Positions 17,061-57,097 of a DNA stretch of 64,000 nt are shown here, piece by piece. Position numbers and translations under genes: made by a program. The notes beneath the pieces are model-generated. The model made no database searches, was not told the DNA's origin, and saw nothing but the letters and a program-made list of their open reading frames with translations. The stretch's first letter is position 1. Each line of letters opens with the position of its first letter. The DNA is from Pseudanabaena galeata CCNP1313 (GTDB taxonomy: Bacteria > Cyanobacteriota > Cyanobacteriia > Pseudanabaenales > Pseudanabaenaceae). Location: assembly GCF_029910235.1 (NCBI RefSeq), contig NZ_CP112875.1, positions 1 to 64,000 on the forward strand. Direction: 5' to 3'.

Positions 17061-17077
17061 ATAAACATACTTTTAAA
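17061..17077 (-). other. Candidate recombination core site (copy 1, XRE side)
   Basis: ATAAACATACTTTTAAA, the partner of 14901-14917, in the divergent promoter region between the recombinase and the XRE gene. Pairs of such sites flank the recombinase in both transposon copies. Confidence 0.4.
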
Positions 17078-17086
17078 CACTATTTT

Positions 17087-17566: not shown

Positions 17567-17671
17567 CGCTTTTAAGCCTATCTTGCAGGTTTTTACACGT
17601 ATCCTGTAGCTACCCCAATAACAGACATCAAAAAGACAGGTTACATCCTGACTGAATAGATAGATTTGACA

Positions 17672-36721: not shown

Positions 36722-38842
36722 ATGACGGAATACAAAATAGTTCTCAAGCCTGTTTATTCTGAGACGGTGGAAACCCCAAAAGGGATCGAAATTCCTGATG
36801 GTTGGCGATTGGCTTGGCATCAGTTAGAGACTTTTAAAGCTTTGCAAGATCCAGATATTGATGTGGTATTTAATACGGCGATGACTGGCGATGGTAAAAG
36901 CTTAGCGGCTTATTTATCCGCTATGACTGGTAAAAATTACACACTTGCAATGTACCCAACTAATGAGCTTGCGAGAGATCAAGAAAAGCAGGTTCAGTCT
37001 TATAAAACCAAGTTTAATCCCAAATATGATCCACAGATTTATCGATTAAATGCGACTACCTTAGAAGATTTTATTGAGACAAATAATTTACCTTCTAAAC
37101 AGTCAGGGTTGCTAAATCGGGTTGACAACTCAGAGATCTTGTTAACAAATCCAGATATTTTTCATTATATCCATGACTTTCGGTATTTAAGGCGCAATGC
37201 TCAAGGGAAGGGAGATAATCCAGACAAGGTATTTAAACGGATTGACGACAACTACAAACTCTTTGTATTTGATGAGTTTCACATTTTCTCATCACCTCAA
37301 ATTGCAAGTATCTTAAATTCAATACTTTTAATGCAACATACAGGAGGAAGACGTAAGTTTTTATTTCTCTCTGCTACGCCTAGCGAGATGCTACAGGAGT
37401 TTTTGACTAAATCAGGCATGAAATATGTTTGGATAAATCCCTTGAGTCATGGGGCTTATTGTTATGACACTCCAAATAATGCAGGACAATGGAGACAGAT
37501 TAATCAGTCTATTAATCTCACTTTTCCGTGTAATTTAGAGCCAAGCTTGCGATCAAGCTATGAATGGATTTTGGAAAATGCAGAAAGTATTATCTTGAAG
37601 TTTTTTCTGGATCATCCTCAAAGTAAAGGAGCAATCATCCTTAATTCGATCGCCGCAGTTAAGAAGCTAACCGTTGCTCTAAAGCCACTATTTAAAAGGC
37701 ATGGGCTAGAAGTTAGAGAAAATACAGGTCTAACGGGAGAATCTGAAAAGGCTTCATCGGTTGAAGAAGCCGATCTCTTGATTGGTACATCGACAATTGA
37801 TGTGGGCGTTGATTTCAAAATAAATTTTCTGGTTTTTGAAGCGGCGGATGGTGGGAATTTTGTACAGCGATTAGGACGACTGGGAAGACATGAGGGATTC
37901 TCAGCATATCAAGCTTATGCGCTGTTACCACATTTCATCCTTTCACGGTTGTTTGAGGTGGAGTCTAAGCCTTTAACTGATGGTGAAACCTATGAACGTC
38001 CAACTTTTAATGATGCAATTCATCAAGCCTATCCGTTTATCAATGAATTTACAGAATATCCAAAACGTTGGGGTGGGATTCAATCTGCTTTTGTCTTTTC
38101 TGAATTGAAAAGAATGTCACAAACCTATCCTGAAGCTGCTGATGGATTTGGCAAAGATGTTCAAAATGCCCTAGGAATTAAGCTTAAACAGCAATATGGA
38201 CATATTGGAGAACTAAAAAATGATGGTAAATCCAAAGTTATTGATGAGGCTCGGAGCTTTCGAGGTAGTAGTCAATTAGATTGTGCAATTTATGATCTAA
38301 CCAATCCTAATGAGCCAGAGTGCGATCGCTTTAAAACCTATAACTTACAGGGCATCCTGAGTAATTTTACCTTTGGATGGATGGAAGAGGATGAATTTAT
38401 TCAAAGAGCAAAAATGGCAAATGCGATGAGAAGTAGATTTAAGGATGTGCTTTGTTATCTCAAATTAACTGGTTATCGAGATGTGCGTGAGGATTGGAAA
38501 TTTTTTATACCTGAAGATTTGGGCGACATAGCGCGACTGGCAAAAGTTCAGGTTTTGAAAGGCTTGGAGGTGTGGCAACCACAGGGAGACGGAATTAACC
38601 AAATTAGCCGATCGCTGAGGAGTCGAGGTTTAGTTTGCTATATCTCTGATCGCGATCGCGCTACACTACGAGCAAAGCTAGGTTTACCAATTCATTTTCA
38701 GGCTTATGGTTTAGCAGATAAGTATAGTTTTAGCGATCGCGGCTCACCACCTTACACGATTGCATTTGGCAAGTCAGCGTTAATTTTAGAAACATTGCTC
38801 AGGTTTTGGAAACCAAAGGAGGACTTAGGATGGATTTGCTAA
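36722..38842 (+). CDS. cas3: Type I-D CRISPR-associated helicase Cas3'
   Basis: A 706-residue SF2 helicase without an HD domain, as in type I-D, where the HD nuclease sits on Cas10d. Walker A is in NTAMTGDGKSLAAYLS near 58, the DEFH box in YKLFVFDEFHIFSSPQ near 185, SAT in FLFLSATPSEM, and motif VI in NFVQRLGRLGRHEGF near 385. It unwinds target DNA after Cascade binding. First gene of the cas operon; it overlaps cas10d by 13 nt. Confidence 0.92.
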   Translation: MTEYKIVLKPVYSETVETPKGIEIPDGWRLAWHQLETFKALQDPDIDVVFNTAMTGDGKSLAAYLSAMTGKNYTLAMYPTNELARDQEKQVQSYKTKFNPKYDPQIYRLNATTLEDFIETNNLPSKQSGLLNRVDNSEILLTNPDIFHYIHDFRYLRRNAQGKGDNPDKVFKRIDDNYKLFVFDEFHIFSSPQIASILNSILLMQHTGGRRKFLFLSATPSEMLQEFLTKSGMKYVWINPLSHGAYCYDTPNNAGQWRQINQSINLTFPCNLEPSLRSSYEWILENAESIILKFFLDHPQSKGAIILNSIAAVKKLTVALKPLFKRHGLEVRENTGLTGESEKASSVEEADLLIGTSTIDVGVDFKINFLVFEAADGGNFVQRLGRLGRHEGFSAYQAYALLPHFILSRLFEVESKPLTDGETYERPTFNDAIHQAYPFINEFTEYPKRWGGIQSAFVFSELKRMSQTYPEAADGFGKDVQNALGIKLKQQYGHIGELKNDGKSKVIDEARSFRGSSQLDCAIYDLTNPNEPECDRFKTYNLQGILSNFTFGWMEEDEFIQRAKMANAMRSRFKDVLCYLKLTGYRDVREDWKFFIPEDLGDIARLAKVQVLKGLEVWQPQGDGINQISRSLRSRGLVCYISDRDRATLRAKLGLPIHFQAYGLADKYSFSDRGSPPYTIAFGKSALILETLLRFWKPKEDLGWIC

Positions 38843-41800
38843 GCAAAAAGAAAACCTCTATGAATGATCAACAACTATCATTCTTTGATAACGATGATGA
38901 TCTTCCTACTGAGTCTATAGACTTTGAATCTACGGAAGATACAGAACAAGATAAACCACCAGAACGACCCGAACTGCTTACAATTCGGTTGTTTAAAGAG
39001 GCAATTAAAAAAGAAAATGAAGGCGATCAAATACTTGAAAAGTTTGCTGATCATGTTTTGCCTAATTTGATTCGTCAGCTTGTCGGCTTTACTGCCAAAG
39101 GTGGTCAATTTACCGAAGATCGCAAGGCTGAAGGTAAAAATGTTGAACGTAGCAAACACGATCAATCTTTAACGGCTCATCTGCTTAACGGGTTATTTCC
39201 GACTTACCGTATTCTAAAAAATCTAAAAAATCATCCAGAAACAAATCAGGTCAAGCGATTATGTGCAGGCAATGATTTTATAGAAGCACTGTTTATCTGT
39301 GACTACATTTTGCATGACTCCGATAAGTTACCCGATTATCAAAGTTGGTTAATTGCCAATGATACGGATGGAAACTTTCGCGATCGCGACTGGAAAAGCA
39401 AACCAGCCAAAAAAGAGGATGCTCCAAACTTTGGACGCGATTTTGTTGAGAAGAAAGTATTAGACTTTGGCTTAGACAAACTTTTTGATAGTAATTGGCG
39501 TGATTACTTAGATGACATCGTATGGGGTATCCATAACGCAGGAGTCAAGTATGACGCTGATCTGGGTATGGAAAAGCGGGGACTCAAGCCTCAATTAGAC
39601 GGCAGGGAAAGAGGTATTCTGTCACGGCTTGTGAGAATTTCTGATCTCTTTGCTTCAGTAATTAAGCATCCCCAAGACATTCAAAGTAGTGGTTTACAGG
39701 AGTTGTTACACGATCTCAGTAATGGACAACTTAAATTTACCTATCATTCACTGTCAGATAATCGAGGCGTTCTTACCAACATCTTAAATAATGCCTTGAT
39801 GGATGCCCATCCCAAGGATGACTATACTCCTTTACTCTTTTTGCCTGATGGTGTTGTTTATCTAGCTAAAGCTAAAGCTATCGAAATCAATACCGATCAA
39901 ATTCCCGATCAAGTTATTGCCAAAATCCGATCGCTTTGTGCGGGGCAACTAAAACGTAGACAAACTGGCTTTGGACGTGATGGTAAAGGCTTTAAATTTG
40001 CAGATTACTACTGGCTATTTTTTGACAGTGTGCAACTCATGCAAGTAAGCGTTAGCGCTGCCTCAAAGCTAATCCCAATTACTAAAGTTTCTTCAGCGAA
40101 AAAGCGTGGTGATAGCTTGGCAAAAGCTCAGGCATCAGGAGAGTTACCAGACAATCTAGATTTAGATTTTCCTGATAATCCATTGATTGACCGATTAGCC
40201 GAATTTGGCGATACCCTATGTCGTGGGATTTGGCGAGAATGGTGCGATCGCGCTAATAACTGGCAAAAACAACAACCAAAAGCAGAGCGTAAAGCTTTGC
40301 CAGAGTTAGATTTAACTGAGAAGTTAGCTGAGGTTCTCGATTTGGCTAACGAAATTCCAATAGTAAAGGCAATTCAATCTCTCAAAAAAACAGGAGGAGT
40401 TCCCCTAGATTGGTATTATCTAGCTGCTCAATATTGCCGTAAGCATCCTGATCTTGATGACAATGGCAGTCGCCAGATCATGGAAGTATTAACCAGTCAC
40501 GCAGCAGAGTTAATCCGCCCAATTTATGAAGAATTTACTTTTCCTGATGGTTGGGATGATTTACGGACATACGTTAGCCGCAGTATTTCCTTACCATCGG
40601 GAGCAGTAATTGCACCTCAGCCTGATAGCTTCTTAGTTGAAATGGGACGCTACAAAGCCGCTAAAGTAGTTGGACGTGGTAGAGAAAATGTCTGTGCGAT
40701 GTCTAGCTCTGCTTACACCGTCAGCGAACAAATGGAATCGGCAACTCTCTTTGCTCCACAGGTTTATAGTAATCGTCAGATTCTATTTAATGCCCAAGCA
40801 GCAAAGCGCCAAATTTGTTCTATCTGGTCAATTGAAATTATGCTACGGCAAATTTTAATGAATCAGACTAACTCCACTGGTGGGGACTTTGAAGGACGCA
40901 AATATCGTTATCTCTATCTTTATCCAACGTACTTTTTCACACCAGAAACGAATAAATTCTTGCAAAAAGCCTATTCGTGGATTGCTAGAATTAGATTTGA
41001 TGCAGATATTCGTAAACATTTAATTAGTGAGGATCAAGTTGCTAAGTTTGAGATTGCGAATTATCAAAGTGTTGACTCTTTACTAATTCAGGAGAACTTA
41101 AACCCAGAAGACGATCGCACATTTAAAATGTTGGGCTATCCCGATGATCAGCCCCTTACATTTTTCTTTCTTGCTCTACCACCGAGCCGAGATGCTACAG
41201 ATACAGAATCTTGGGTAATGCCGTCATGGTTAGCGATGGCATTACCTCTCATCCTTGACGTAAAAACTGTTGTTTCTGAGTCACCTGTACCACCTTTTAT
41301 AAGTGGTGCTGATTTTGAGGAGACAGCTTTACTCGATGGTGAGCATCAAGCTATACGTTCGTTAATCAAACGCGATCGCATTCGCCTTGATGCGATTATT
41401 CCTAGAGAGACAGCAGAGCGTAAATTCTCACCTCTCAATGCTTTGAGTACAGCCTACTGCATTCATTTAGAGGCTAATCGAAAAAAAGATGGCGATCCTG
41501 ACTGGGGAAAACTGTCGGCATTAGCCCGTGACCTAGAAACCAGTCCTCTATTTGTTTTCCACTATCTCAATGTGTGGTTACGCAAACAAGACCGAGATAC
41601 TGTACCAATCCAAAAGGTGAAACTCTATCTCGATCTCTACTACTATCTTGATCCAGAGGGAAAAGACGTGAATCAACTTCGTAAACTAACTCAGCTTTAC
41701 CGTGCGTTTTATCGTGCTAAGAGTCAGTATGCCAAAGCCAATGCTGTTCTCAAACCGATTGATGAAGCAGCAGATGTGATTATCAAGATCAACAAAACCC

Positions 41801-42177
41801 TAGCTAATGACACAGAGTCACTCACTGATATTGTCTCGGCAAGGCTTGCTAAACTCATGACCAATGTTCGGCGGAGGGCAGCAGAAGGCAAGCCAACCCT
41901 TACTTTTGTTGATGGTAAGTGGAAACCTGCACTCACTAGCGAACAGGAGCGTCAAGCCATTTATGAGTTCTCACTATTTTTTGTCAAAGAAATCTTTGAG
42001 GGGACTTTTAAAGGCGATCGCTCTCGTTTAGCAGGAACACAACTCAATCTAATCAGAGATACTTGTGATTATCTCTATCGTCTCGAAGATGATCGAGAAC
42101 GTCAGGAGCGTAAGGTTGACGAACCCAGCGAAATCCCTGAAATTCTTGAAGATGACACCGATCAATCAAATCTTTAA
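38830..42177 (+). CDS. cas10d: Type I-D large subunit Cas10d (Csc3)
   Basis: 1115 residues from the ATG at 38830, preferred because AGGAGG lies 6-7 nt upstream; it overlaps the cas3 stop. The N-terminal HD nuclease region shows KHDQSLTAHLLNGLFPTYRIL, DYILHDSDKLPDY and HNAG. The middle contains palm-like domains; I see no GGDD polymerase motif, as usual for Cas10d. The helical C-terminus corresponds to the small subunit Cas11d, which may also be made from an internal start (see 41668). Nuclease of the I-D effector complex. Confidence 0.93.
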   Translation: MDLLSKKKTSMNDQQLSFFDNDDDLPTESIDFESTEDTEQDKPPERPELLTIRLFKEAIKKENEGDQILEKFADHVLPNLIRQLVGFTAKGGQFTEDRKAEGKNVERSKHDQSLTAHLLNGLFPTYRILKNLKNHPETNQVKRLCAGNDFIEALFICDYILHDSDKLPDYQSWLIANDTDGNFRDRDWKSKPAKKEDAPNFGRDFVEKKVLDFGLDKLFDSNWRDYLDDIVWGIHNAGVKYDADLGMEKRGLKPQLDGRERGILSRLVRISDLFASVIKHPQDIQSSGLQELLHDLSNGQLKFTYHSLSDNRGVLTNILNNALMDAHPKDDYTPLLFLPDGVVYLAKAKAIEINTDQIPDQVIAKIRSLCAGQLKRRQTGFGRDGKGFKFADYYWLFFDSVQLMQVSVSAASKLIPITKVSSAKKRGDSLAKAQASGELPDNLDLDFPDNPLIDRLAEFGDTLCRGIWREWCDRANNWQKQQPKAERKALPELDLTEKLAEVLDLANEIPIVKAIQSLKKTGGVPLDWYYLAAQYCRKHPDLDDNGSRQIMEVLTSHAAELIRPIYEEFTFPDGWDDLRTYVSRSISLPSGAVIAPQPDSFLVEMGRYKAAKVVGRGRENVCAMSSSAYTVSEQMESATLFAPQVYSNRQILFNAQAAKRQICSIWSIEIMLRQILMNQTNSTGGDFEGRKYRYLYLYPTYFFTPETNKFLQKAYSWIARIRFDADIRKHLISEDQVAKFEIANYQSVDSLLIQENLNPEDDRTFKMLGYPDDQPLTFFFLALPPSRDATDTESWVMPSWLAMALPLILDVKTVVSESPVPPFISGADFEETALLDGEHQAIRSLIKRDRIRLDAIIPRETAERKFSPLNALSTAYCIHLEANRKKDGDPDWGKLSALARDLETSPLFVFHYLNVWLRKQDRDTVPIQKVKLYLDLYYYLDPEGKDVNQLRKLTQLYRAFYRAKSQYAKANAVLKPIDEAADVIIKINKTLANDTESLTDIVSARLAKLMTNVRRRAAEGKPTLTFVDGKWKPALTSEQERQAIYEFSLFFVKEIFEGTFKGDRSRLAGTQLNLIRDTCDYLYRLEDDRERQERKVDEPSEIPEILEDDTDQSNL
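41668..42177 (+). CDS. cas11d: Cas11d small subunit, predicted internal translation product
   Basis: In type I-D systems the small subunit is known to be translated from inside cas10d. An in-frame GTG at 41668 is preceded by AGAGGG with a 7-nt spacer. It would give 169 residues (VNQLRKLTQLYRAFYRAKSQ...), an all-helical protein matching the expected position of Cas11d. The start codon is inferred; other internal starts cannot be excluded. Confidence 0.5.
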   Translation: MNQLRKLTQLYRAFYRAKSQYAKANAVLKPIDEAADVIIKINKTLANDTESLTDIVSARLAKLMTNVRRRAAEGKPTLTFVDGKWKPALTSEQERQAIYEFSLFFVKEIFEGTFKGDRSRLAGTQLNLIRDTCDYLYRLEDDRERQERKVDEPSEIPEILEDDTDQSNL

Positions 42178-44626: not shown

Positions 44627-45070
44627 CTAACCACCAAAACCCTTTTTCTTTTTATTCGATTTGATTGGCTTGAGTGACTTACCACTATTTGCGATCGCTA
44701 ATCTCGTATTTCGCTTTTTCTGATATTCCTTGATTCTAGATGCCAACGGATGACTCGAATCAAGTCTGAGATGAGTAAGAGACATTACAAATGCACCAAC
44801 ATTTTTATCGTCTTTTGAGGCTTCTCCAGCCTTGGCAATTAAGGTGCAGAGGATACCACCCATATCACTGGAGTAAAACAGTTTTTCGATTTCATACACC
44901 TGATCTGGATCGGAAACGTTAACACTCTGCTCTTTGAGTCCCTGAAATCCTCTTTCTGTAATCCGAACATTTATGGGAAGGCTAGATTCCATATCTACAT
45001 AAAGTTTACGGGCTAGAACTGGATCGTCAATTGTTGCGATCGCAAACATTTTCTCGGTTTGTTCATCCAT
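44627..45070 (-). CDS. Hypothetical protein antisense within cas operon (147 aa)
   Basis: Lies between csc1 and cas6 on the opposite strand. Starts MDEQTEKMFAIATIDDPVLARKLYVDME and ends with a Lys-rich tail (SGKSLKPIKSNKKKKGFGG). The segment AFVMSLTHLRLDSSHPLASRIKEYQKKRNTRLA recalls a conserved cyanobacterial hypothetical family, but I cannot name it. Its insertion interrupts the spacing of an otherwise tight operon. A link to CRISPR function is not supported by any motif. Confidence 0.6.
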   Translation of the reverse strand: MDEQTEKMFAIATIDDPVLARKLYVDMESSLPINVRITERGFQGLKEQSVNVSDPDQVYEIEKLFYSSDMGGILCTLIAKAGEASKDDKNVGAFVMSLTHLRLDSSHPLASRIKEYQKKRNTRLAIANSGKSLKPIKSNKKKKGFGG

Positions 45071-45155: not shown

Positions 45156-46052
45156 ATGCCTCATAGCTTAGTTGTTAATTTTATGCCAAAAACACCGATT
45201 TATCCTGAATATCTAACAGGACGGCATATTCATGCGCTTTTTTTGACATTGGTTAGCTCTGTAGATAAAGAACTAGGCGATCGCCTGCATGGTGAAAAAG
45301 CGAATAAAGGATTTGGGTTGAGTCCGATTCAGCAATTGGCGGTTAGCGATCGGCAATTAGCGGTTAGCTCTGACAAGAACAAACCCAAGCTAAAGAAAGC
45401 CAACAGCCAACAGCTAAAAGCTAAAAGCCTCTCTTGGCACAATCAAGAAATCTCCCCCTCAACTCCCTGCTGGTGGCGCATCACCCTATTAGATGAAGTT
45501 CTCTTTAGCAAACTCACAGGACTTTGGCTCAATCTCAACCCCGATCGCGCTTTTCATCTTGGTTCCGCCGACCTCTATATCACCAGTATTCTCGGCACAC
45601 CCCAATCGAGCCAACCTTGGGCAAACTTCGCCACCTATCAACAAATCTACGATCGCGCCTCAGATACAGAAAAAGCGATCGCCTTTCACCTCGCTACACC
45701 CACCGCATTCCGTCAGGGTAAATATGACTCGCCATTACCCACTCGCGACAATGTATTTAAAAGCCTATGCGATCGCTGGAACACCTACAGCGAAATCCCA
45801 ATTAATCCCGAAATTATCGAATATATCTTTCCCAGTAAATTTGACATTAAGACAGAAGTTGTCAAAAACTATGACACCCATAGTTTTATCGGTTGTGTCG
45901 GTGAGATTGGTTATCGAATTCTCGGTGATGCCTCACCAGATGCGATCAAACAAATTAATGCTCTAGCGGACTTTGCGATGTTTGCTGGAATTGGGAGGAA
46001 GACGACGATGGGGATGGGGATGGCTAAGAGGCTGTTAGCGATTAGCTGTTAG
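45156..46052 (+). CDS. cas6: CRISPR pre-crRNA endoribonuclease Cas6
   Basis: A 298-residue RAMP protein. Family landmarks: SLVVNFMPKTPIYPEYLTGRHIHALFL at the start, STPCWWRITLLDE in the middle, VGEIGYRIL, and the glycine-rich loop FAMFAGIGRKTTMGMGMAKR at the C-terminus. Residues about 64-92 (QQLAVSDRQLAVSSDKNKPKLKKANSQ...) are encoded by heptamer-like repeats (45341-45435) and interrupt the core between KGFGLSPI and SWHNQE. The final codons (LLAISC) also come from a repeat. Cas6 releases crRNAs by cutting in the repeat; whether the insertion is tolerated is unknown. Confidence 0.88.
   Translation: MPHSLVVNFMPKTPIYPEYLTGRHIHALFLTLVSSVDKELGDRLHGEKANKGFGLSPIQQLAVSDRQLAVSSDKNKPKLKKANSQQLKAKSLSWHNQEISPSTPCWWRITLLDEVLFSKLTGLWLNLNPDRAFHLGSADLYITSILGTPQSSQPWANFATYQQIYDRASDTEKAIAFHLATPTAFRQGKYDSPLPTRDNVFKSLCDRWNTYSEIPINPEIIEYIFPSKFDIKTEVVKNYDTHSFIGCVGEIGYRILGDASPDAIKQINALADFAMFAGIGRKTTMGMGMAKRLLAISC
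45341..45435. repeat. Heptamer-type repeats inside cas6
   Basis: Units such as CAATTGGCGGTTAGCGATCGG, CAATTAGCGGTTAGC, CCAACAGCCAACAGC and TAAAAGCTAAAAGC follow each other within the cas6 coding frame. They belong to the same AGCTAAA/AGCCAAA/GTTAGC family seen in the gaps downstream. The frame stays open. Confidence 0.7.
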
Positions 46053-46262
46053 CTTTTAGCTTTTTTGATGAAGAGGCTGTTAGCGATTAGCTTTTAGCTT
46101 TTAGCTTTTTTGTTTTATCGGTCTTGCTAAAAATATACTTGTAATCACTAATCTCCAAAAGCTAAAAGCTAAAAGCTAAAAGCTAAAAGCTAAAAGCTAA
46201 AAGCTAAAAGCTAAAAGCTAAAAGCTAAAAGCTAAAAGCTAAAAGCTAAAAGCTAATCGCTA
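46022..46262. repeat. Heptamer repeat block between cas6 and the four-helix gene
   Basis: AGCTTTT/GTTAGC units at 46030-46115, then an uninterrupted run of about 14 AGCTAAA units (46157-46255) just before the start at 46268. The two halves are partly inverted, so a large hairpin could form. Confidence 0.85.
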
Positions 46263-46267
46263 AAAAA

Positions 46268-46627
46268 ATGAAAGACTTCAAAGAATTAAAAGTATGGCAA
46301 CGCTCTCATCAAATCACCCTCAAAATTTACAAGATTACGGCAAGTTTTCCCAAAGAAGAACTTTATGGTCTAGTTAGCCAAATGCGCCGATCTTCTTCAT
46401 CGATTCCGACAAATATTGCAGAAGGTTGTGGTAGAGGTTCTGATGCTGACTTTGCAAGATTTTTGCAAATAGCAATGGGATCAGCTAGTGAACTGGAATA
46501 TCAGCTATTACTATCTGTAGATCTTGGCTTCATCAATCAAGAAACATACCAAGCCATCAACCCAGAACTAATCGAAACAAAAAGAATGCTCAATTCTTTC
46601 CTACAAAAACTAAGATCCAAAAACTAA
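46268..46627 (+). CDS. Four-helix bundle protein (S23/IVP type)
   Basis: A 119-residue member of the family first found in 23S rRNA intervening sequences: MKDFKELKVWQRSHQITLKIYKITASFPKEELYGLVSQMRRSSSSIPTNIAEG, then FARFLQIAMGSASELEYQLLL. The fold is a pentameric four-helix bundle related to bAvd of diversity-generating retroelements; the function of standalone copies is unknown. It sits between cas6 and cas4, with a heptamer block on each side, as if carried in together with them. Confidence 0.88.
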   Translation: MKDFKELKVWQRSHQITLKIYKITASFPKEELYGLVSQMRRSSSSIPTNIAEGCGRGSDADFARFLQIAMGSASELEYQLLLSVDLGFINQETYQAINPELIETKRMLNSFLQKLRSKN

Positions 46628-46732
46628 CCCCTAAAAGCCAAAAGCCAAAAGCCAAAAGCCAAAAGCCAAAAGCCAAAAGCCAAAAGCCAAAAGCCAAAAG
46701 CTAATCGCTAATCGCTAAAAGCCAAAAGCCCT
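46627..46732. repeat. AGCCAAA heptamer block before cas4
   Basis: A run of about ten AGCCAAA units, then CTAATCGCTAATCGC, ending at the cas4 start. cas4 has no recognisable ribosome binding site because the repeats occupy that position. Confidence 0.85.
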
Positions 46733-47320
46733 ATGAATGAACCAATCCCCATCGCCGCTTTAAACCAATATGCATATTGTCCTCATCGGTGTTGGCGAAT
46801 GTTTTGTGCAGGAGAATTTGTTGAGAATCATTACACGATTGAGGGGACAGATCTACATCAGCGCGTGCATACGGTTGGCGAAAATCAACGGGAGGAGACA
46901 TGGCAAATCAGGGCGATCTGGTTAAAGTCGGAACAATACGGATTGATCGGCAAATCGGATTTGATTGAAGAAGTTGATGGTAATCTCTATCCCATTGAAT
47001 ACAAACGTGGACATAAAGGGGAATGGGATAACGATGCGATGCAAGTTGTGGCTCAAGCCCTCTGTTTAGAAGAGATGACGGGTAAAACGATTACGAAGGG
47101 CTATGTTTATTATGCTCAAACGCACCAAAGACAAGAGATTGAGATTACATCTGAGTTGCGAGATGAGGCGATCGCAATGATTACCGAAATCTCGCAAATG
47201 ATGGAAACTAGCAAAATGCCTCCTGCTATCTATGGCAATCGGTGTAAAGGTTGCAGTCTGTTTACTCAGTGTGTACCGATGGCGAAGGAAAAGGTTGGGA
47301 AGTATAAAGAGGGCTGTTAG
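46733..47320 (+). CDS. cas4: Cas4 nuclease (adaptation)
   Basis: A 195-residue RecB-type nuclease with an iron-sulfur cluster. The first Cys is in YCPHRCW near 17. The nuclease core is GLIGKSDLIEEVDGNLYPIEYKRG (D, then E-x-K), and the C-terminal cluster cysteines are in CKGCSLFTQC. Cas4 trims prespacers and selects the PAM. Start and stop are both at repeat edges. Confidence 0.93.
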   Translation: MNEPIPIAALNQYAYCPHRCWRMFCAGEFVENHYTIEGTDLHQRVHTVGENQREETWQIRAIWLKSEQYGLIGKSDLIEEVDGNLYPIEYKRGHKGEWDNDAMQVVAQALCLEEMTGKTITKGYVYYAQTHQRQEIEITSELRDEAIAMITEISQMMETSKMPPAIYGNRCKGCSLFTQCVPMAKEKVGKYKEGC

Positions 47321-47488
47321 CTGTTAGCTTTTAGCTGTTAGCTGATAGCTGTTAGCTTTCCCGTCTTTAGGTTCAAAAGCTACTCTCGACTTCTCAATGT
47401 AGTGAAAACGTCTAATTTATTCAAAAAAACAACCACTAAAAGCTAAAAGCTAAAAGCTAAAAGCTAATCGCTAATCGCTAATCGCTAA
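47318..47488. repeat. Heptamer repeats between cas4 and cas1
   Basis: GCTGTTAGCTTTTAGCTG-type units at 47315-47360 and AGCTAAA units then GCTAATC units at 47428-47488. About 65 bp of ordinary sequence lies between them. No gene in this 177-bp gap. Confidence 0.85.
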
Positions 47489-47497
47489 ATAAAAACT

Positions 47498-48573
47498 ATG
47501 GGAACTCTCTACATAACTCACGATGATTCGTTTATTGGCAAGACTGATGAGCGTTTGACGGTCAAGGCTGATAAGAAACAGTTGATTGATGTGCCACTGA
47601 TTAAGGTTGAAGGTGTGGTCATCCTCGGTCGCGCCACAATTTCTCCTGCGGCGGTGATAGAACTGTTGGAGCGCAAAATTCCGATGTCGTTTATGACAGG
47701 AACGGGGCGCTTTCTTGGTCGTTTGGAGCCTGAGCTAACTAAAAATATTTTTGTAAGGCGATCGCAGTGGGATGCGGCAGGGGAGACACCGAAGGCAATT
47801 CATATGGTGCAAGCCTTTGTGCGCGGCAAGTTAAAAAATTATCGTGGGTCATTAATGCGGCATCTGCGGGATTATCCTGATAATGATTTACAGAAGGCGA
47901 TTGATGCTCTCGAACGGGCAATTGATTCGTTGGCGGCGATTCAGGCGATCGCTAGTTTGCGAGGTGTGGAGGGGCATGGCAGCGCTGTCTATTGGCAAGC
48001 TTTCCCGAAATTAATTCGCGCTGAAGGTTTTAGCTTTACAACTCGCAATCGCCGCCCGCCCACTGATCCTGTGAATGCGATGTTGAGTTTTGGCTATTCC
48101 CTGTTACGTCATGATGTTCAGGGGGCGCTAAATATTGTCGGTTTCGATCCCTATCTTGGCTATTTGCATACAGAGCGCTATGGTCGTCCCAGTCTTGCCC
48201 TTGATCTAATGGAGGAGTTTCGCCCCTTGATTGTGGATGCGATCCTTACAGATTTTCATGGTTATCTCCAAATAAAGAAATGGAGGAGTTTCGCCCCTTG
48301 ATTGTGGATGCGATCGTGCTGTCGGCTATTAATCGCAAGGCGATCGCGCCCAAGGATTTTACTTCTGAGCCATTGAGTAAGGCGATTTCTCTGTCTAATG
48401 AGGCGAGAAAAGTATTTTTAACGCTGTACGAGCAGAAAAAACAGTCAGAATTTAAGCATCCTGTAATGGGTCGTAAATGTACTTATCAGGAGGCTTTTGA
48501 GCTTCAGGCTAGGCTTTTGGCTAAGTATTTGATGGATGAGACGGATAAGTATCCTCCTTTGGTTTTGAAGTAG
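47498..48573 (+). pseudogene. cas1: Cas1 integrase, frameshifted by a 71-bp repeat-spacer-like insertion
   Basis: Residues 1-249 are normal Cas1: TLYITHDDSFIGKTDERLTV, SLRGVEGHGSAVYW with catalytic Glu158, GYSLLRHDVQGAL...GFDPYLGYLH, and LALDLMEEFRPLIVDAI. A 71-bp insertion (37-bp duplication plus 34 unique bp) then shifts the frame and ends translation at 48301 after 267 residues. The correct C-terminal part (VLSAINRKAIAPKDF...LARYLMDE-like) continues in another frame to 48573. Removing 71 bp restores a 334-residue Cas1, the usual length. Cas1 is the spacer integrase; the truncated form lacks about 85 C-terminal residues and is probably inactive. Confidence 0.9.
48208..48315. repeat. 37-bp direct repeat around a 34-bp unique segment in cas1
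   Basis: AATGGAGGAGTTTCGCCCCT...GATGCGATC occurs at 48208-48244 and again at 48279-48315. The 34 bp between (48245-48278, starting CTTACAGATTTTC) are foreign to cas1. The CRISPR repeat of the adjacent array is also 37 nt and its spacers are about 34-45 nt. Confidence 0.95.
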
Positions 48574-48806
48574 CGATTAGCTTTTAGCTTTTAGCTTTTA
48601 GCTTTTAGCTTTTAGCTTTTAGCTTTTAGCTGTTAGCTGTTAGCTGTTAGCTGTTAGCTGTTAGCTGTTAGCTTTTAGCTTTTAGCTTTTAGCTTTTAGC
48701 TTTTTAATGAAGTTAAAGCTTGAGATTCAGTTGAAATTTATTAGACTTCCTTTTCGTTAATTCTTAAATTAGCTAACAGCTAACAGCTAATAGCTAACGG
48801 CTACCC
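48573..48806. repeat. Heptamer repeats between cas1 and cas2
   Basis: A block of AGCTTTT units, then AGCTGTT units, then AGCTTTT again (48574-48705), and a shorter inverted set of AGCTAAC/AGCTAAT units (48765-48806). No gene in this gap. Confidence 0.85.
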
Positions 48807-48818
48807 CCTTTAATCCCC

Positions 48819-49091
48819 ATGTTCCTAGTCATCTCCTACGATATTTCTGAAGATAAGCGCCGTACTAAGATCCACAAGATCCTGAAGTCCTATGGGCAAT
48901 GGATGCAGTTTAGTGTGTTTGAGTGTGAGCTTACGGATGCTCAATACGCGAAATTGCGATCGCGTTTGAGTAAGTTAATCAAGCCTGATGAGGATAGTAT
49001 CCGTTTTTATACGCTATGTGCTTGCTGTCAGCCTAAAATAGAACGTATTGGCGGTGAACAGGTGCGAGATAATACAATATTTTTCGCTTGA
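48819..49091 (+). CDS. cas2: Cas2
   Basis: A 90-residue Cas2: MFLVISYDISEDKRRTKIHKILKSYGQWMQFSVFECELTD with the ferredoxin-like first strand and Asp (YDI), then DSIRFYTLCACC. It bridges Cas1 dimers in the integrase complex. Intact, but its partner cas1 is frameshifted. Last gene before the leader. Confidence 0.93.
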   Translation: MFLVISYDISEDKRRTKIHKILKSYGQWMQFSVFECELTDAQYAKLRSRLSKLIKPDEDSIRFYTLCACCQPKIERIGGEQVRDNTIFFA

Positions 49092-49359
49092 TTTCTGGTT
49101 CATTGGTTGCGCGAGTTGGTGGATGTTTTTTTAATTGTATGCTGTTTGGTATTTTACAAGTCTTGGCAGGTATGTTTTTGAGGGCGATCGGACGAGTTGG
49201 TCGATTCGCGCAAGTCTGGAATGTGTTGGTAAATATAGTTTTGTATTGGTTGGTGGAAGTTGTAAAATCTGTTCAACAGGTTCAAATCTGCTACAATTTG
49301 TATGGTTCGCGCAAATGTACCTTGAAAACTAAATATGATATGCTTTACAAACGCGGGCG
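49092..49359 (+). promoter_or_regulatory. CRISPR leader
   Basis: 268 bp between cas2 and the first repeat. T-rich, no gene. TACAAT at 49292-49297 could be a -10 box about 60 bp before the first repeat, with TTGAAAACTAAATATG after it. New spacers would be added at its 3' edge. The short frames that cross it and enter the array are not genes. Confidence 0.7.
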
Positions 49360-52300
49360 GATTCAAAGCCTCTGAAACCCTTTTAGGGATTGAAACGAGA
49401 AGCGGATCGAGAAAGTCGTTATCGCTGGTGGCGATTCAAAGCCTCTGAAACCCTTTTAGGGATTGAAACGCTCAAATCAATGCTGAGAAGCAAATAGAGA
49501 CCACTAGATTCAAAGCCTCTGAAACCCTTTTAGGGATTGAAACAAGTCTTCTTTGAGTTTGGATTTATAAGCGTCCGTATTATGATTCAAAGCCTCTGAA
49601 ACCCTTTTAGGGATTGAAACCAGCCTATAAAAACTTTCACGGCTTCACACAAAATGATTCAAAGCCTCTGAAACCCTTTTAGGGATTGAAACGCAGCAAT
49701 TTCAACATCAGCACTACCACAAATGAATTTTGCTGATTCAAAGCCTCTGAAACCCTTTTAGGGATTGAAACTTTTATCTCAAGCCAATTGGTACAGGAAA
49801 CCCATAGATTCAAAGCCTCTGAAACCCTTTTAGGGATTGAAACATTGTTTATTACGAATAGGTGACAAAATGGCTTGGTGATTCAAAGCCTCTGAAACCC
49901 TTTTAGGGATTGAAACAGAAAAATCACTGGTTTTTGTTCTAGAAATAAAAGTGATTCAAAGCCTCTGAAACCCTTTTAGGGATTGAAACATACCTTTGAT
50001 CGGCGTGCCATCTTTTAGTGAAACTTTTGTAGATTCAAAGCCTCTGAAACCCTTTTAGGGATTGAAACATCTACCAAGTTGGATTTGGCAGAAAAAGCAA
50101 GGCTGATTCAAAGCCTCTGAAACCCTTTTAGGGATTGAAACTAAACTCATAACTTCTTCACTATCAAGACGTGACAAAGATTCAAAGCCTCTGAAACCCT
50201 TTTAGGGATTGAAACAGGTTAGCTACGGTATTTAGTCCAGCGTCGATAGAGCGATTCAAAGCCTCTGAAACCCTTTTAGGGATTGAAACTCAATAGCTTG
50301 CAATGCTGACAATTGATCTTCGAGATTCAAAGCCTCTGAAACCCTTTTAGGGATTGAAACAAGTGCTGTAAGAGCAAGTTTGATACCCTTTGTACGATTC
50401 AAAGCCTCTGAAACCCTTTTAGGGATTGAAACATCGAACTTAATCTAGAGAATGCCTTGGTGCAATAGATTCAAAGCCTCTGAAACCCTTTTAGGGATTG
50501 AAACAAAGGAAACAAGGGCGTGGTTCTCAATGGACGCGCCCCGAGATTCAAAGCCTCTGAAACCCTTTTAGGGATTGAAACTCTTTGGATGTGCGCTCTT
50601 TAACGAGTGATTGCGGGGTGGATTCAAAGCCTCTGAAACCCTTTTAGGGATTGAAACATAGTTCCAAAACCTCAATATCATCAGGGGATACAGATTCAAA
50701 GCCTCTGAAACCCTTTTAGGGATTGAAACGAAATTGTCCCCCTAGGTTTGGGTGACACAGCATACGATTCAAAGCCTCTGAAACCCTTTTAGGGATTGAA
50801 ACACTCAGGATAGAGGTAAAACTACTGTTGCTGAATTTGCGGGATTCAAAGCCTCTGAAACCCTTTTAGGGATTGAAACTCAATGCCATTGCTAACCCTA
50901 ATAAGATCTTTGGATTCAAAGCCTCTGAAACCCTTTTAGGGATTGAAACTGATCATTGTTTATTGCAGTGCTACGCATAGCGATCGCGCGATTCAAAGCC
51001 TCTGAAACCCTTTTAGGGATTGAAACTTGAATCCCAAGGCGAAGCAATTACTCAAGTATTCGGAACGATTCAAAGCCTCTGAAACCCTTTTAGGGATTGA
51101 AACGAAGAGATCGCAGCTAAGAAGCCCACAGCAGCTAAGGATTCAAAGCCTCTGAAACCCTTTTAGGGATTGAAACATTAACAAGCCGTCAGCATCCCCA
51201 AAGGCGACGCGAAATAGATTCAAAGCCTCTGAAACCCTTTTAGGGATTGAAACATAACGATCGCCTATTTTTATTTGAGTGCTTCGGATTCAAAGCCTCT
51301 GAAACCCTTTTAGGGATTGAAACCTTTTACTCACGCATTCACTCCTTTAAAAGCACCAATTGATTCAAAGCCTCTGAAACCCTTTTAGGGATTGAAACCA
51401 ATCTCGATCCTAATAACTTTCTCATGATGATTAAGATTCAAAGCCTCTGAAACCCTTTTAGGGATTGAAACAGATCGGAATACAGACTCCGTACCATTAA
51501 ACACGCTCTTGATTCAAAGCCTCTGAAACCCTTTTAGGGATTGAAACGCAGTAGCCATGACGTGAATCTCCTTTTAGAATAAGATTCAAAGCCTCTGAAA
51601 CCCTTTTAGGGATTGAAACATCAGGGGAGAATGCAACAACATAGATCGAAGATGTGACAGATTCAAAGCCTCTGAAACCCTTTTAGGGATTGAAACAAAG
51701 CACTTTTTTCTATACTGCATAAGACTTTTAGGTGATTCAAAGCCTCTGAAACCCTTTTAGGGATTGAAACGAATGATTTCACCAAATATACTGCTTTTCC
51801 AATCTGATTCAAAGCCTCTGAAACCCTTTTAGGGATTGAAACAAGATTTTGGCTGTGTTCTCCATGAGGCGCTATAATGATTCAAAGCCTCTGAAACCCT
51901 TTTAGGGATTGAAACAGAGCTTTGTGATTATCAAGTTTACGGCTCTATTTCGGATTCAAAGCCTCTGAAACCCTTTTAGGGATTGAAACCTAGTGACATA
52001 CCCGACACTCATTTTGTAAACAAAGATTCAAAGCCTCTGAAACCCTTTTAGGGATTGAAACATCGTTTTTGCCACTAATCCTGTAGGCGGTGCGGGGATT
52101 CAAAGCCTCTGAAACCCTTTTAGGGATTGAAACCCAGCGATTGTCATCTTTGGTGACTGAGATAAGGTAAGACTGGATTCAAAGCCTCTGAAACCCTTTT
52201 AGGGATTGAAACGCGTCATTTCTTGACCAGTGCAAAGGTGATTGGGATTCAAAGCCTCTGAAACCCTTTTAGGGATTGAAACTTAGTACGATATGGGTTG

Positions 52301-55300
52301 CTCCATTCAATCAAAAAATCACGCGATTCAAAGCCTCTGAAACCCTTTTAGGGATTGAAACGCTACGAAGTAACTCTTGCCAGACTAAATCAAAGATTCA
52401 AAGCCTCTGAAACCCTTTTAGGGATTGAAACTGGATCAGTGACAGATGAAGGAACATCCAAGCTAGATTCAAAGCCTCTGAAACCCTTTTAGGGATTGAA
52501 ACGCTACTCCTAAGCCCACAAACGAAGTAGCTGTAAAGATTCAAAGCCTCTGAAACCCTTTTAGGGATTGAAACTGATCCTCAAGGTGAAAGTAATTTTA
52601 TGACTAAACGATTCAAAGCCTCTGAAACCCTTTTAGGGATTGAAACGCAGCCGCCGAAAAGAGAGCGCAAGAAGCTTTGGAGATTCAAAGCCTCTGAAAC
52701 CCTTTTAGGGATTGAAACATAAGGCGCACCCATCTCTACTCGCTTTAGTGCTTTGGATTCAAAGCCTCTGAAACCCTTTTAGGGATTGAAACACTACCTT
52801 AGTAGCATTTGTGTCTTTAGCTGCTGCTAATTTAGATTCAAAGCCTCTGAAACCCTTTTAGGGATTGAAACTTTAGCTTTAGCTCAATCAAAAATGCTAA
52901 CGATTTGATTCAAAGCCTCTGAAACCCTTTTAGGGATTGAAACTTATGGCTATGGGCTAGAGGCTCCGATAGATACAAGTAAGATTCAAAGCCTCTGAAA
53001 CCCTTTTAGGGATTGAAACGAAAAATTGCGTATGAAAATCACCGTCACACTAAACCGATTCAAAGCCTCTGAAACCCTTTTAGGGATTGAAACCTAGCAA
53101 CTTCTCAAGCTTTGCAGAGCCAATCCTGATTTGATTCAAAGCCTCTGAAACCCTTTTAGGGATTGAAACCCTCAAGAGGTGCAAAATTGGTATGAGAAAC
53201 TAATGGATTCAAAGCCTCTGAAACCCTTTTAGGGATTGAAACCAACCAAATCAAGGTAATCAAAGAACAAATCATCTGATTCAAAGCCTCTGAAACCCTT
53301 TTAGGGATTGAAACATGAGGCTCCCACAGAAGAAGATCCTGACAACTTTGGATTCAAAGCCTCTGAAACCCTTTTAGGGATTGAAACATCATATCTTTTA
53401 ATAGTTGTGGATTCACTGGATGGCAGATTCAAAGCCTCTGAAACCCTTTTAGGGATTGAAACGAGCTGTTTCTAACTTTGCAATATTAGCTAATTCAAGA
53501 TTCAAAGCCTCTGAAACCCTTTTAGGGATTGAAACCCGTTGTAATCTTGCAACGCCTTGCCACTGCGGATTCAAAGCCTCTGAAACCCTTTTAGGGATTG
53601 AAACTATTCAAAACAACCCTAGGACATGGCTGATCTTTGGATTCAAAGCCTCTGAAACCCTTTTAGGGATTGAAACAGAAATCAATCTAGCTCTTATCTC
53701 ATCCCTGACTACGATTCAAAGCCTCTGAAACCCTTTTAGGGATTGAAACTTTGGCTGTGGGAATGCAAAGGGGTAAGGGATAGAGATTCAAAGCCTCTGA
53801 AACCCTTTTAGGGATTGAAACGTTTTACCTCTATCTTGAGTGACAATAAACTGATCAGATTCAAAGCCTCTGAAACCCTTTTAGGGATTGAAACTAATCT
53901 GCGAGAGGGGCGCTACTCCCTCTCAGTGGCGCTGTGTGGGATTCAAAGCCTCTGAAACCCTTTTAGGGATTGAAACCTTGAGCGATTTCCGAGACTATGA
54001 CCAAGGGCGCAAATTCGATTCAAAGCCTCTGAAACCCTTTTAGGGATTGAAACGCAAAGCGAACTCGATCTAGAGTTGCCGAAGCGAGGAAACCCAAGAT
54101 TCAAAGCCTCTGAAACCCTTTTAGGGATTGAAACTTTATAAGCGTAAAAGGCGAAAGCACGATAGAGATCACCGCGATTCAAAGCCTCTGAAACCCTTTT
54201 AGGGATTGAAACGATGGATTGCGGAAATAGAGATAAGCAGATTGAGATTCAAAGCCTCTGAAACCCTTTTAGGGATTGAAACTTGGTTGAGGCTAGATAT
54301 GTAAATCAACTTTACGGATTCAAAGCCTCTGAAACCCTTTTAGGGATTGAAACATTTGCAATTCTATCCGCCTGAGGTGATTGAAACGATTCAAAGCCTC
54401 TGAAACCCTTTTAGGGATTGAAACTATGGCTAATAATGAGGCTTTAGAGCAGAAATTAAAGATTCAAAGCCTCTGAAACCCTTTTAGGGATTGAAACAGA
54501 CCAGATTAGAGACAGCATTCAAACGGTACGGACTCAAGATTCAAAGCCTCTGAAACCCTTTTAGGGATTGAAACTTTTTAGAGAGAGAATAATCAACAGC
54601 TATTACAATTGGGATTCAAAGCCTCTGAAACCCTTTTAGGGATTGAAACGATGATGGGGTAAATATTCTCCCCATAGGAAACAAGATTCAAAGCCTCTGA
54701 AACCCTTTTAGGGATTGAAACTGTCCAAGCGGCGAAACTATTTATCAAGCAAGAGGATTCAAAGCCTCTGAAACCCTTTTAGGGATTGAAACAATGCCTC
54801 TAGCTAAGGCACTTGCTGAGGCGTTGTGATTCAAAGCCTCTGAAACCCTTTTAGGGATTGAAACGAGTCGTAACTCTGACTTTGCCTGCCTCAGGGCATG
54901 ATGATTCAAAGCCTCTGAAACCCTTTTAGGGATTGAAACTCGTCTGGAAGCCCATCGTCCTTATCCTCATCGTCTAGATTCAAAGCCTCTGAAACCCTTT
55001 TAGGGATTGAAACACGCAAAATATTAGAGACTCTATCCTGACTCTTGCGAGATTCAAAGCCTCTGAAACCCTTTTAGGGATTGAAACACCATTACAGAGT
55101 ATGTCAATAATCGCGCCTGACGATTCAAAGCCTCTGAAACCCTTTTAGGGATTGAAACAAGTTTGAGGGAATCGAAGATTCGATATCTCAAATTGATTCA
55201 AAGCCTCTGAAACCCTTTTAGGGATTGAAACATGTGGATAGCTTGCGTGATAACAAGCGATTGGCGATCGCGATTCAAAGCCTCTGAAACCCTTTTAGGG

Positions 55301-55441
55301 ATTGAAACTATTAAAGTAATCAGTCCACTGCTCAGGTTTGGGGCGATTCAAAGCCTCTGAAACCCTTTTAGGGATTGAAACCCATTTGATAATGTTAAGG
55401 CGGCATAGCGCCGCCGATTCAAAGCCTCTGAAACCCTTTTA
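49360..55441 (+). CRISPR. Type I-D CRISPR array, ~82 full repeats plus one truncated
   Basis: The 37-nt repeat begins GATTCAAAGCCTCTGAAACC and ends TTTTAGGGATTGAAAC, the ATTGAAAC end being the usual crRNA 5' handle source. I counted 83 repeat starts; by eye I saw no mutated repeat. Spacers are mostly 34-40 nt, one is 45 nt. Average period is about 74 bp. The leader and cas genes are on the left, so the oldest spacers should be on the right. The last repeat is cut after 26 nt by the Tn3-family element, so the original trailer is missing. Confidence 0.98.
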
Positions 55442-55491
55442 GGGGTAGCTACAGGATACGTGTAAAAACCTGCAAGATAGGCTTAAAAGCG

Positions 55492-55971
55492 TTACCCAGA
55501 CGAGCTTTGAGAAATCAGTTTAGACTTATAGGGAGAACCACAAAAAGGACAGAAGTGATGCTTGAGCGAAGAAATAGTTTGCTGGCAATGAGTACAGCGA
55601 TCGCCAAGTTTCCCCCCACAGAGAAAGCAAAACTTAGCCCTGACATCCATCCACATAGGATCAGCAGGATTGCCAGGAGTCCAGCAAGATGGACAGAACT
55701 TAAGCATAGAAACAGGCTCAATGGAAGTACCACGAGAAACAGCCTCTAAATATTCCACGGGAACTTGCAAAGCCGAAGCCAAACCAGTTTTACTATGAGA
55801 ACTCAGCTTAGCCGTCAGTCCCCGTTCAATCTTGCCCAAACTCTGCAAATGAATCGACGAAATCGCCGCCAACTCCCTCTGATTCAAACCGAGGGAAATT
55901 CGGATACGTTTGACATAGGCAGCCAAGGTTTCACCAGAGTTAGGCGATTTATCACCCTGTAAAATATTCAC
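55492..55971 (-). CDS. XRE-type regulator with zinc ribbons (transposon copy 2)
   Basis: Same 159-residue sequence as 17087-17566: XRE helix-turn-helix followed by four Cys pairs. GTG start, divergent from the recombinase gene. The shared intergenic region contains the candidate recombination site 55981-55997, so binding there could regulate both genes. Its stop lies about 50 bp from the transposon end. Confidence 0.8.
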   Translation of the reverse strand: MNILQGDKSPNSGETLAAYVKRIRISLGLNQRELAAISSIHLQSLGKIERGLTAKLSSHSKTGLASALQVPVEYLEAVSRGTSIEPVSMLKFCPSCWTPGNPADPMWMDVRAKFCFLCGGKLGDRCTHCQQTISSLKHHFCPFCGSPYKSKLISQSSSG

Positions 55972-55980
55972 AAAATAGTG

Positions 55981-55997
55981 TTTAAAAGTATGTTTAT
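55981..55997 (+). other. Candidate recombination core site (XRE side)
   Basis: TTTAAAAGTATGTTTAT, followed by ATAGAAAACTATACTATC. It is repeated with two mismatches at 56990-57006 on the other side of the recombinase gene, in the same orientation. Confidence 0.45.
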
Positions 55998-56052
55998 AGA
56001 AAACTATACTATCAACAGATTATATAACTCACCGCATTAACTAGCTGATAAA

Positions 56053-56961
56053 TTGACTATCACACTAGCTACAGTTACCACTGAATTCCTAGAGCGTACA
56101 GGACTAGCCCAAAGCACCGTGCAATCCTACGAACTAAGCCTAATGCCACTACTCAAAGAATATGGCAGTTATCCCATTGAATTATTGAGTCGAGCAACCC
56201 TAACAAAATACCTAGAAGGCTTAACAGATCTCGCCTATACGACCCATCACCGTCACCAAGCCATCCTCCAAGCCCTATTCAACTTTGCCGTAGAGCGCGG
56301 TTATCTAAAAGCCAACCCCATCGTCCGACTGCATCGGCGCAAACCAAACCCAGAGAAAGGAGAACATCATGCCGATGGAGTAATTCGATACCTATCGCCC
56401 GAACAGATCGTCAGTCTCTACCAAGTCGTAGAACGCGACGGTCGCATGAAAGCATTGGTCTGCTTGCTGCATCGCACAGGAGCGAGGATCGCGGAAATCC
56501 TGAGCTTGCAATTAGCAGAAATCAACCTCAAAGAACGTAAATTTCAAGTGATCGGCAAAGGCAATAAAACCCGATGGTGTTTCTACAGCGAAGATGCGGC
56601 AACCGGATTAGAAAAATATCTAAAATACTATCGACACAAGGAATCACCAGCCTTATTCACCACCCAACAGCCTGTGACGGAGAAAGTTACCCCCTTGAGT
56701 TATCAGACAGCCCATCGTGACTGGACAAAATTAACTAAGAATGACCCAAAACTCCAAGGTATCAGAATGCACGACCTCCGTCACACCTTTGCCACCGAGA
56801 GAGTTGGCTTAATGGGTATCGAAGAATTACGCGCCTTAATGGGACATACAAATATCAACACCACCTTACGCTATCAAAAAGTTACTTCTGAACGAGCAGA
56901 GATAACTGCTCACAAAGCTTTAAATCAACTGCTCCAAAACTCAGAAAACAGCCAAACTTAA
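56053..56961 (+). CDS. Tyrosine recombinase (TnpI-like resolvase)
   Basis: A 302-residue phage-integrase-family recombinase with a TTG start. SAM-like N-terminal domain (TEFLERTGLAQSTVQSYELSLMPLL). Catalytic residues: R145 (TGARIAEIL), H240 and R243 (HDLRHTF), H265 (MGHTNINTTL) and nucleophile Y274 (RYQK). In Tn3-family elements such as Tn4430 a tyrosine recombinase of this kind resolves cointegrates. Complete here, split in copy 1. Confidence 0.9.
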   Translation: MTITLATVTTEFLERTGLAQSTVQSYELSLMPLLKEYGSYPIELLSRATLTKYLEGLTDLAYTTHHRHQAILQALFNFAVERGYLKANPIVRLHRRKPNPEKGEHHADGVIRYLSPEQIVSLYQVVERDGRMKALVCLLHRTGARIAEILSLQLAEINLKERKFQVIGKGNKTRWCFYSEDAATGLEKYLKYYRHKESPALFTTQQPVTEKVTPLSYQTAHRDWTKLTKNDPKLQGIRMHDLRHTFATERVGLMGIEELRALMGHTNINTTLRYQKVTSERAEITAHKALNQLLQNSENSQT

Positions 56962-56989
56962 ATATTGATTAAATCCCATTCATAGATTG

Positions 56990-57006
56990 TTTAAAAGGGT
57001 GTTTAT
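56990..57006 (+). other. Candidate recombination core site (tnpA side)
   Basis: TTTAAAAGGGTGTTTAT between the recombinase and tnpA. It matches 55981-55997 at 15 of 17 positions and may be the second binding site of the recombinase. Confidence 0.45.
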
Positions 57007-57097
57007 TCAAAATTGATAGAGTATTGGTTATACTCTGTCTACGCAAACTGAGTGTTCCTACAGCCAGCACTAGCTTACTTGTCCTCTAAACGTCTCT

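Follow-up and report, generated by a model that had tools for sequence, protein, structure and literature searches.

A split cas1 gene in a type I-D CRISPR locus

The stretch of DNA analysed here, hereafter the window, comprises positions 1 to 64,000 of contig NZ_CP112875.1 (C2; 225,631 bp) of the cyanobacterium Pseudanabaena galeata CCNP1313, whose genome of 5.84 Mb is assembled in 6 contigs (completeness 100). It contains a type I-D CRISPR (clustered regularly interspaced short palindromic repeats) locus made up of cas3', cas10d/csc3, cas6, cas4, cas1, cas2, a leader and an array, and in the integrase gene of this locus, cas1, a perfect 37-bp direct repeat (100% identity between the copies) brackets 34 bp of unrelated DNA. 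An earlier note on this DNA had described this structure and had read it as the product of an off-target spacer integration; its coordinates proved exact and its borders unambiguous, the bases beside the two 37-bp copies being different on either side (T and A on the left, C and G on the right). Together the insert and the duplication add 71 bp, which shifts the reading frame of cas1. Removal of the 71 bp joins the flanks into a cas1 frame of 334 residues, as the note had said, and this frame is closed by a single terminal stop. The parts of the interrupted gene are as follows.

47498–48301, + strand: cas1 fragment 1, 267 residues (249 native plus 18 frameshifted), which keeps E158, H224 and the DLMEE motif
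48208–48244, + strand: duplicated 37-bp target, first copy (AATGGAGG...GCGATC), identical to 48279–48315 and single in 13 of 13 relatives
48245–48278, no strand assigned: 34-bp spacer-like insert, missing from the empty site of 13 of 13 relatives and single copy in its own genome
48279–48315, + strand: duplicated 37-bp target, second copy, identical to 48208–48244
48280–48573, + strand: cas1 fragment 2, 97 residues, the C-terminal part, with a possible restart at an ATG in the second copy (TIGR04093 positions 240–334)

The note had placed the event at a DLMEEFRP segment of Cas1. The duplicated block does cover and duplicate MEEFRPLIVDAI; the segment is not removed, however, and each cas1 fragment keeps a copy. 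A 28-bp core of the block has two matches in the window, as against none in 100 shuffles.

The assignment of the locus to type I-D rests on matches above cut-off to TIGR03174, TIGR03158, TIGR00372 and TIGR01573; both cas1 fragments match TIGR04093 (Cas1d) better than any other model, each alone falling below its cut-off. The neighbouring features are these.

36722–38842, + strand: cas3' of type I-D (TIGR03158)
38806–42177, + strand: cas10d/csc3, the type I-D signature gene (TIGR03174)
45156–46052, + strand: cas6 (TIGR01877)
46733–47320, + strand: cas4 (TIGR00372)
48819–49091, + strand: cas2 (TIGR01573)
49092–49359, + strand: leader of the I-D array, its extent being an estimate (48819–49360, that is cas2 and leader, aligns at 95% in two relatives, G005 and G011)
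49360–55443, + strand: type I-D CRISPR array with 82 perfect 37-nt repeats, the last repeat, from 55416, being cut by a Tn3-family element (end placed by eye)

The insertion site lies about 1 kb before the first repeat of the array, within the adaptation operon. The array holds 82 perfect 37-nt repeats and one truncated repeat, with 82 intervals of 32–45 nt (mode 35), seven of which are 34 nt long. The duplication in cas1 is therefore of exactly the length of the adjacent repeat and the insert falls within the spacer range, as the note had pointed out. A report on the type I-D system of Synechocystis gives 35 as the most frequent length of the spacers that it acquires (PMC10212523). Elsewhere in the genome, contig C5 carries two further Cas1 genes with open frames of 665 and 730 residues, both apparently intact, and five arrays, found by searching for one repeat motif, all of which have 35-nt repeats.

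Relatives carry an empty site

To compare the gene with its relatives we used a DNA search of 58 genomes, including the strain's own, which yielded 13 other genomes of the genus with a cas1 locus (L008–L020). In all 13, the 37-bp block is present once, the 34-mer is absent and the 334-codon frame is intact; the comparison with related strains that the note had proposed thus returned an empty site and an intact gene throughout, and no relative with the 71 bp. Two more distant genomes of the same class (G048 and G049) show the same gap in pieces of alignment and stand outside this count, and the closest named match, a plasmid of Pseudanabaena sp. ABRG5-3 (85%), is not independent of genome G022. 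Among 26 genomes of the genus, the 34-mer is present in one, the strain's own. Since the site is empty in 13 of 13 relatives, the insertion occurred on the branch leading to this genome.

Apart from the insert, cas1 is without decay. The flank-joined gene has a ratio of nonsynonymous to synonymous differences (pN/pS) of 0.06 against four relatives, and it has no private residue at columns that are invariant in the 13 relatives, whose own counts range from 0 to 9. From this lack of decay we take the lesion in cas1 to be recent.

Structures of this kind elsewhere in the genome

We searched 2,803,546 bp (48%) of the strain's own genome for exact pairs outside arrays in which two copies of a sequence A of at least 30 bp bracket a sequence B of 20–60 bp. 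Of the 26 such pairs, 23 have a B whose alignment score marks it as similar to a flank, as in degenerate tandem repeats. Among these 23, C1:1975275 is a 37/35 pair within a frame of 491 codons (score 0.91) and C1:1909408 a 40/35 pair within one of 329 codons (score 0.51). Three pairs pass this filter: the one in cas1, one in the heptamer tract that follows shortly after the gene (48591), and one on C5 that is a CRISPR repeat overlooked by the array mask. A mismatch-tolerant scan with periods of 58–91 bp gave seven candidates outside arrays, and four of these were clean, namely the cas1 structure, the C5 CRISPR repeat just mentioned, the repeat at 1909403 and, away from long frames, a dispersed repeat at C1:1238798.

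Searches for the source of the 34-mer

The whole of the strain's own genome holds no second copy of the 34-mer at up to three mismatches. In 2.4 Mb of that genome the longest partial match is 14 bp, a length within the 12–16 bp that 30 shuffles gave; in the 7 kb around the insert it is 9 bp. The note had named local slippage as an origin of the 34-mer that would speak against its reading; a template for it was found neither in the genome at up to three mismatches nor among the partial matches in the 2.4 Mb and the 7 kb. Read on the other strand, the 34-mer had also been likened to the start of a foreign gene, a suggestion left without support by donor searches of genomes, viral contigs, and phage and plasmid records. 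In viral contigs, the exact 34-mer gave no match and three 20-mers taken from it gave one, none and none; a 22-mer gave none in genome contigs; all of the matches listed from phage and plasmid records had E values of at least 0.9; and a degenerate pattern for the start region was found in neither of two viral contigs that match native spacers. One viral contig (L027) was considered as a donor and set aside: it matches at the likely ribosome-binding site and start codon, but overall at only about 23 of 34 positions (counted by hand), and we judged this to be chance.

As a yardstick, we ran comparable searches with native spacers. With cores of 20 bases from three leader-end spacers, one of the three had a match in viral contigs, and the whole array searched against phage records matched seven (four of Microcystis phage MaMV, two of LMM01 and one of a Nostoc phage, the LMM01 and Nostoc records weakly), the MaMV records being matched at repeat-like sequence, as seen in one of the four. 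Native spacers, too, seldom lead to a donor, and little can therefore be read into the lack of one for the 34-mer.

A viral sequence of 13.5 kb (L181, part of a 75.5-kb IMG/VR contig) is matched by native spacers 1, 24, 35 and 46 (4 of 82) with 4, 7, 2 and 8 mismatches, compared with 12 mismatches for the best of 82 shuffled spacers; the best alignment of the 34-mer to it has 14. The protospacers of spacers 1 and 35 have GTT just upstream, and those of the weaker spacers 24 and 46 have GCT and ATT. The protospacer-adjacent motif (PAM) of type I-D is given as GTN in PMC10212523. From these matches, it appears that the array is a record of phages of the L181 kind, partly with a type I-D PAM. The viral contig of L181 and L180 carries terminase, portal, scaffold and PAPS-reductase-like genes and is a candidate phage of this host or of a relative. 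Separately, Microcystis phage MaMV-CH01 (L182, 1190–1302) carries two CRISPR-like repeats ending in CCCTATTAGGGATTGAAAC around one spacer-like stretch, which by eye is nearly a reverse-complement copy of the phage DNA that lies immediately upstream, as in a phage-borne mini-array with a self-matching spacer.

Off-target integration as the probable explanation, and its alternatives

We consider it very probable that off-target full-site integration by the type I-D Cas1–Cas2 complex is the best explanation of the cas1 insert. The central claim of the earlier note is, in this respect, well supported by the empty sites in 13 of 13 relatives, the repeat-length duplication, the spacer-length insert, the failure to find a template and, in the 48% of the genome that was scanned, the lack of any other clean case apart from a heptamer tract. 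In the sequence of events that we propose, a prespacer of about 34 bp, held by the type I-D Cas1–Cas2 complex (with Cas4), would have been integrated at a non-CRISPR site in cas1 by two strand transfers on opposite strands 37 bp apart, which is the spacing used on the native repeat, and gap repair would then have copied these 37 bp, with the 34 bp ending up between the two copies. On this reading, attack was at a 5' A on the top strand (48208) and a 5' G on the bottom strand (opposite 48244). To our knowledge, CRISPR adaptation is the process known to duplicate 25–50 bp around a short foreign insert. According to PMC6977970, CRISPR repeats, regarded as target duplications, generally measure 25–50 bp, and the target duplication of a casposase 14 bp. 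For Streptococcus thermophilus Cas1–Cas2, PMC6895254 describes low-level off-target sites spread broadly over plasmids and, at what are likely half sites, attack at G in 54–57% and then at A in 21–22% of cases. The two bases attacked in cas1 are thus the two favoured off target by that enzyme, an agreement of slight weight.

We infer both the responsible enzyme and the foreign origin of the 34-mer; the I-D complex is indicated because the duplication measures 37 bp, against the 35-nt repeats of the five arrays on C5. Several observations weigh against this explanation. The target agrees with the native repeat at 14 of 37 positions in register, a value reached by 7.3% of the 37-mers in the window, and at 10 of 37 on the other strand; it agrees with the leader–repeat junction at 4 of 10 positions on either side, as do 22% of positions in cas1. 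Neither likeness is significant, so the orientation of the insert cannot be told; we take likeness to the leader–repeat junction to be a tendency and not obligate for off-target sites. In addition, the insert has a GC content of 29%, compared with a mean of 42% for the array spacers (3 of 82 are equally low), no search returned a donor for it, and the lesion is known from a single genome. Nor was a second off-target event found in the 48% of the genome that was scanned, which speaks against a wave of such events.

One rival is repair of a break without CRISPR proteins, in which long staggered ends were filled in and a 34-bp filler captured, the lengths being coincidental. Structures of this A-B-A form can in principle arise in this way, and the lack of significant likeness of the target to the repeat or the leader junction is in its favour. 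It would, however, need a coincidence of exactly 37 bp with an insert in the spacer range, in an adaptation gene itself; the 34-mer has no other genomic copy (at up to three mismatches), and its partial matches in 2.4 Mb do not exceed chance; and the exact scan of 2.80 Mb gave no other clean structure of like size outside arrays, the heptamer tract excepted. We therefore regard break repair as unlikely. That one of the two other Cas1 proteins, encoded on C5 (665 and 730 residues), made the off-target integration in place of the I-D complex is an idea to which the apparently intact state of both genes lends some substance, but the repeats of the C5 arrays (sought by a single motif) are of 35 and not 37 nt, and we hold it to be quite improbable.

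An artefact of assembly or sequencing has in its favour that the insert is known from the assembly of one genome; the remainder of cas1, however, is free of error-like changes, with no private residue at the invariant columns, and since the 34-mer occurs nowhere else in the assembly, a misjoin of known parts does not account for it. An artefact is accordingly very improbable. Finally, the window has two near-identical Tn3-family copies and contig C3 a third, which suggests recent transposition, so that the scar of an insertion or excision of an insertion sequence, a miniature inverted-repeat transposable element (MITE) or a casposon has to be weighed. Usual insertion-sequence target duplications are far shorter than 37 bp. 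The 34-bp insert is single copy and has no terminal inverted repeat by eye, and 37 bp is far above the 14–15 bp duplications given for casposases in PMC6977970; the chance that such a scar is the explanation is next to nil.

Consequences for Cas1

The gain of 71 bp shifts the frame of cas1 after residue 249, so that Cas1 is split into a 267-residue fragment and a possible 97-residue restart product. Fragment 1 is without the C-terminal 85 residues of Cas1. Its E158, H224 and DLMEE motif align with solved Cas1 proteins at positions that we take to be catalytic in Cas1. The ATG of fragment 2 lies 19 bp before the stop codon of fragment 1, with no clear ribosome-binding site by eye. It is likely that Cas1 activity has been lost, as the note had concluded in saying that the integrase had disabled itself; we only infer this loss, since the catalytic positions survive in fragment 1 and fragment 2 has an ATG of its own. 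Acquisition of new type I-D spacers would very probably have stopped, whereas the array remains in place, as do the interference genes that were tested.

The note had further proposed that the event is a natural brake on adaptation. This proposal finds no support, in that the event is known once, selection has left no sign and two further Cas1 genes look intact; a programmed brake was dropped as recurrence was not found and the site is empty in relatives. A neo-CRISPR making CRISPR RNA from the 37-bp block was likewise dropped, its likeness to the repeat not being significant. When 388 cyanobacterial genomes were surveyed for the C-terminal fragment, 127 had a match (136 matches by our own count) and six had an open frame shorter than 220 residues; among the five of these other than the strain's own, judged from profile coordinates only, no second overlapping split of cas1 was found. 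One of them, G385, has two adjoining Cas1 pieces whose profile coordinates look like a frameshift. The survey overlooks any gene truncated at the end of a contig, and any lesion within the C-terminal fragment after which the frame is still long. Because there is one case in one genome and no second overlapping split in this survey, we treat the cas1 lesion as an accident that was kept by chance or under a relaxed need for adaptation.

Direct repeats such as these could permit precise reversion. It is conceivable, though we think it doubtful, that the lesion is both self-limiting and revertible, such that the integrase is turned off and a precise 71-bp excision through the 37-bp repeats, by slippage or recombination, restores cas1; the lesion would then be an accidental heritable off–on switch of adaptation, seen here in the off state. 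On the same doubtful footing, the fragments may even still work as a split Cas1, with fragment 1 holding the catalytic positions and both holding MEEFRPLIVDAI.

Other features of the locus

Upstream of cas6 lies an antisense open reading frame (ORF) of 147 residues (44627–45070) without an NCBIfam or Pfam family match; the ABRG5-3 plasmid has a hypothetical gene of like size and orientation before cas6. Between cas6 and cas4 there is an ORF for a four-helix bundle (46268–46627; TIGR02436, the family of 23S ribosomal RNA intervening-sequence proteins). Heptamer tandem repeats (AAAAGCT-like and the complement) occupy 46157–46265, 46633–46730, 47436–47489 and 48577–48704, between cas6, cas4, cas1 and cas2, and are dispersed in the genus too.

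The Tn3-family element at 55416–60384 lies inside the last CRISPR repeat and truncates the array at its trailer end. It carries a 988-residue transposase, an integrase-like ORF and a zinc-ribbon helix-turn-helix ORF, and by eye the DNA on its far side is not the remainder of the cut repeat. Positions 59884–60384 hold a perfect 249-bp tandem duplication of the 3' end of the transposase gene and the terminus of the element, and a second, nearly identical copy of the element lies at 11767–17620 of the window. Outside the array, the whole genome (searched at up to three mismatches) holds only one further 37-nt repeat, a perfect copy on contig C3 (G000:C3:122790–122826; L050, 12790–12826). It adjoins a spacer-length stretch and another Tn3-family copy, and may be a trailer end displaced from the array; a similar repeat–trailer junction with three mismatches occurs in 2 of 25 other genomes of the genus.

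Relation to known systems

Off-target spacer integration has been seen with purified proteins and under overexpression, with few putative natural cases. A natural example within the integrase gene itself, almost unscarred and at a site that is empty in 13 relatives, would show a genetic cost of adaptation, and its signature, a repeat-length duplication around a spacer-length insert at a site empty in relatives, can be sought in other genomes. If the reading is correct, the type I-D system of this strain was probably no longer adding spacers when it was sequenced, and the cas1 lesion offers a system in which reversion could be examined.

Nivala et al. in 2018 reportedly saw off-target integrations in Escherichia coli with overexpressed Cas1–Cas2, and putative natural cases in Yersinia pestis and Sulfolobus islandicus; because of the latter, natural off-target integration as such is not new. 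Their cases and ours share the integration of spacer-sized DNA outside arrays, and differ in that ours involves a type I-D cyanobacterium, an empty site in 13 relatives and, as target, the integrase gene. In vivo, non-canonical integration in which Cas1–Cas2 puts spacer-sized DNA outside arrays is also mentioned in PMC11788318 and PMC9456107, citing Nivala et al. 2018. In the literature searched (titles and the openings of abstracts), we found no description of a spacer integrated into a cas1 gene, and it is integration into the integrase's own gene that appears to be the new part.

The in vitro work with S. thermophilus Cas1–Cas2 (PMC6895254) likewise shows a non-CRISPR target and attacked bases that are G and then A; there, however, the events are probable half sites on plasmids in a leader–repeat-like context, whereas in cas1 we would be dealing with a two-sided event without significant resemblance to that context. 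Natural loss of a cas gene by insertion has a parallel in the inactivation of cas genes by insertion sequences described in PMC10359306, although in our case the insert is spacer-sized and accompanied by a repeat-length duplication, and is not a transposon. Lastly, the casposase of PMC6977970 is, like the enzyme that we propose, a Cas1-type integrase that duplicates its target, but its 14–15 bp duplications and terminal inverted repeats both have no counterpart in the split cas1 gene, where the duplication has the length of the type I-D repeat.
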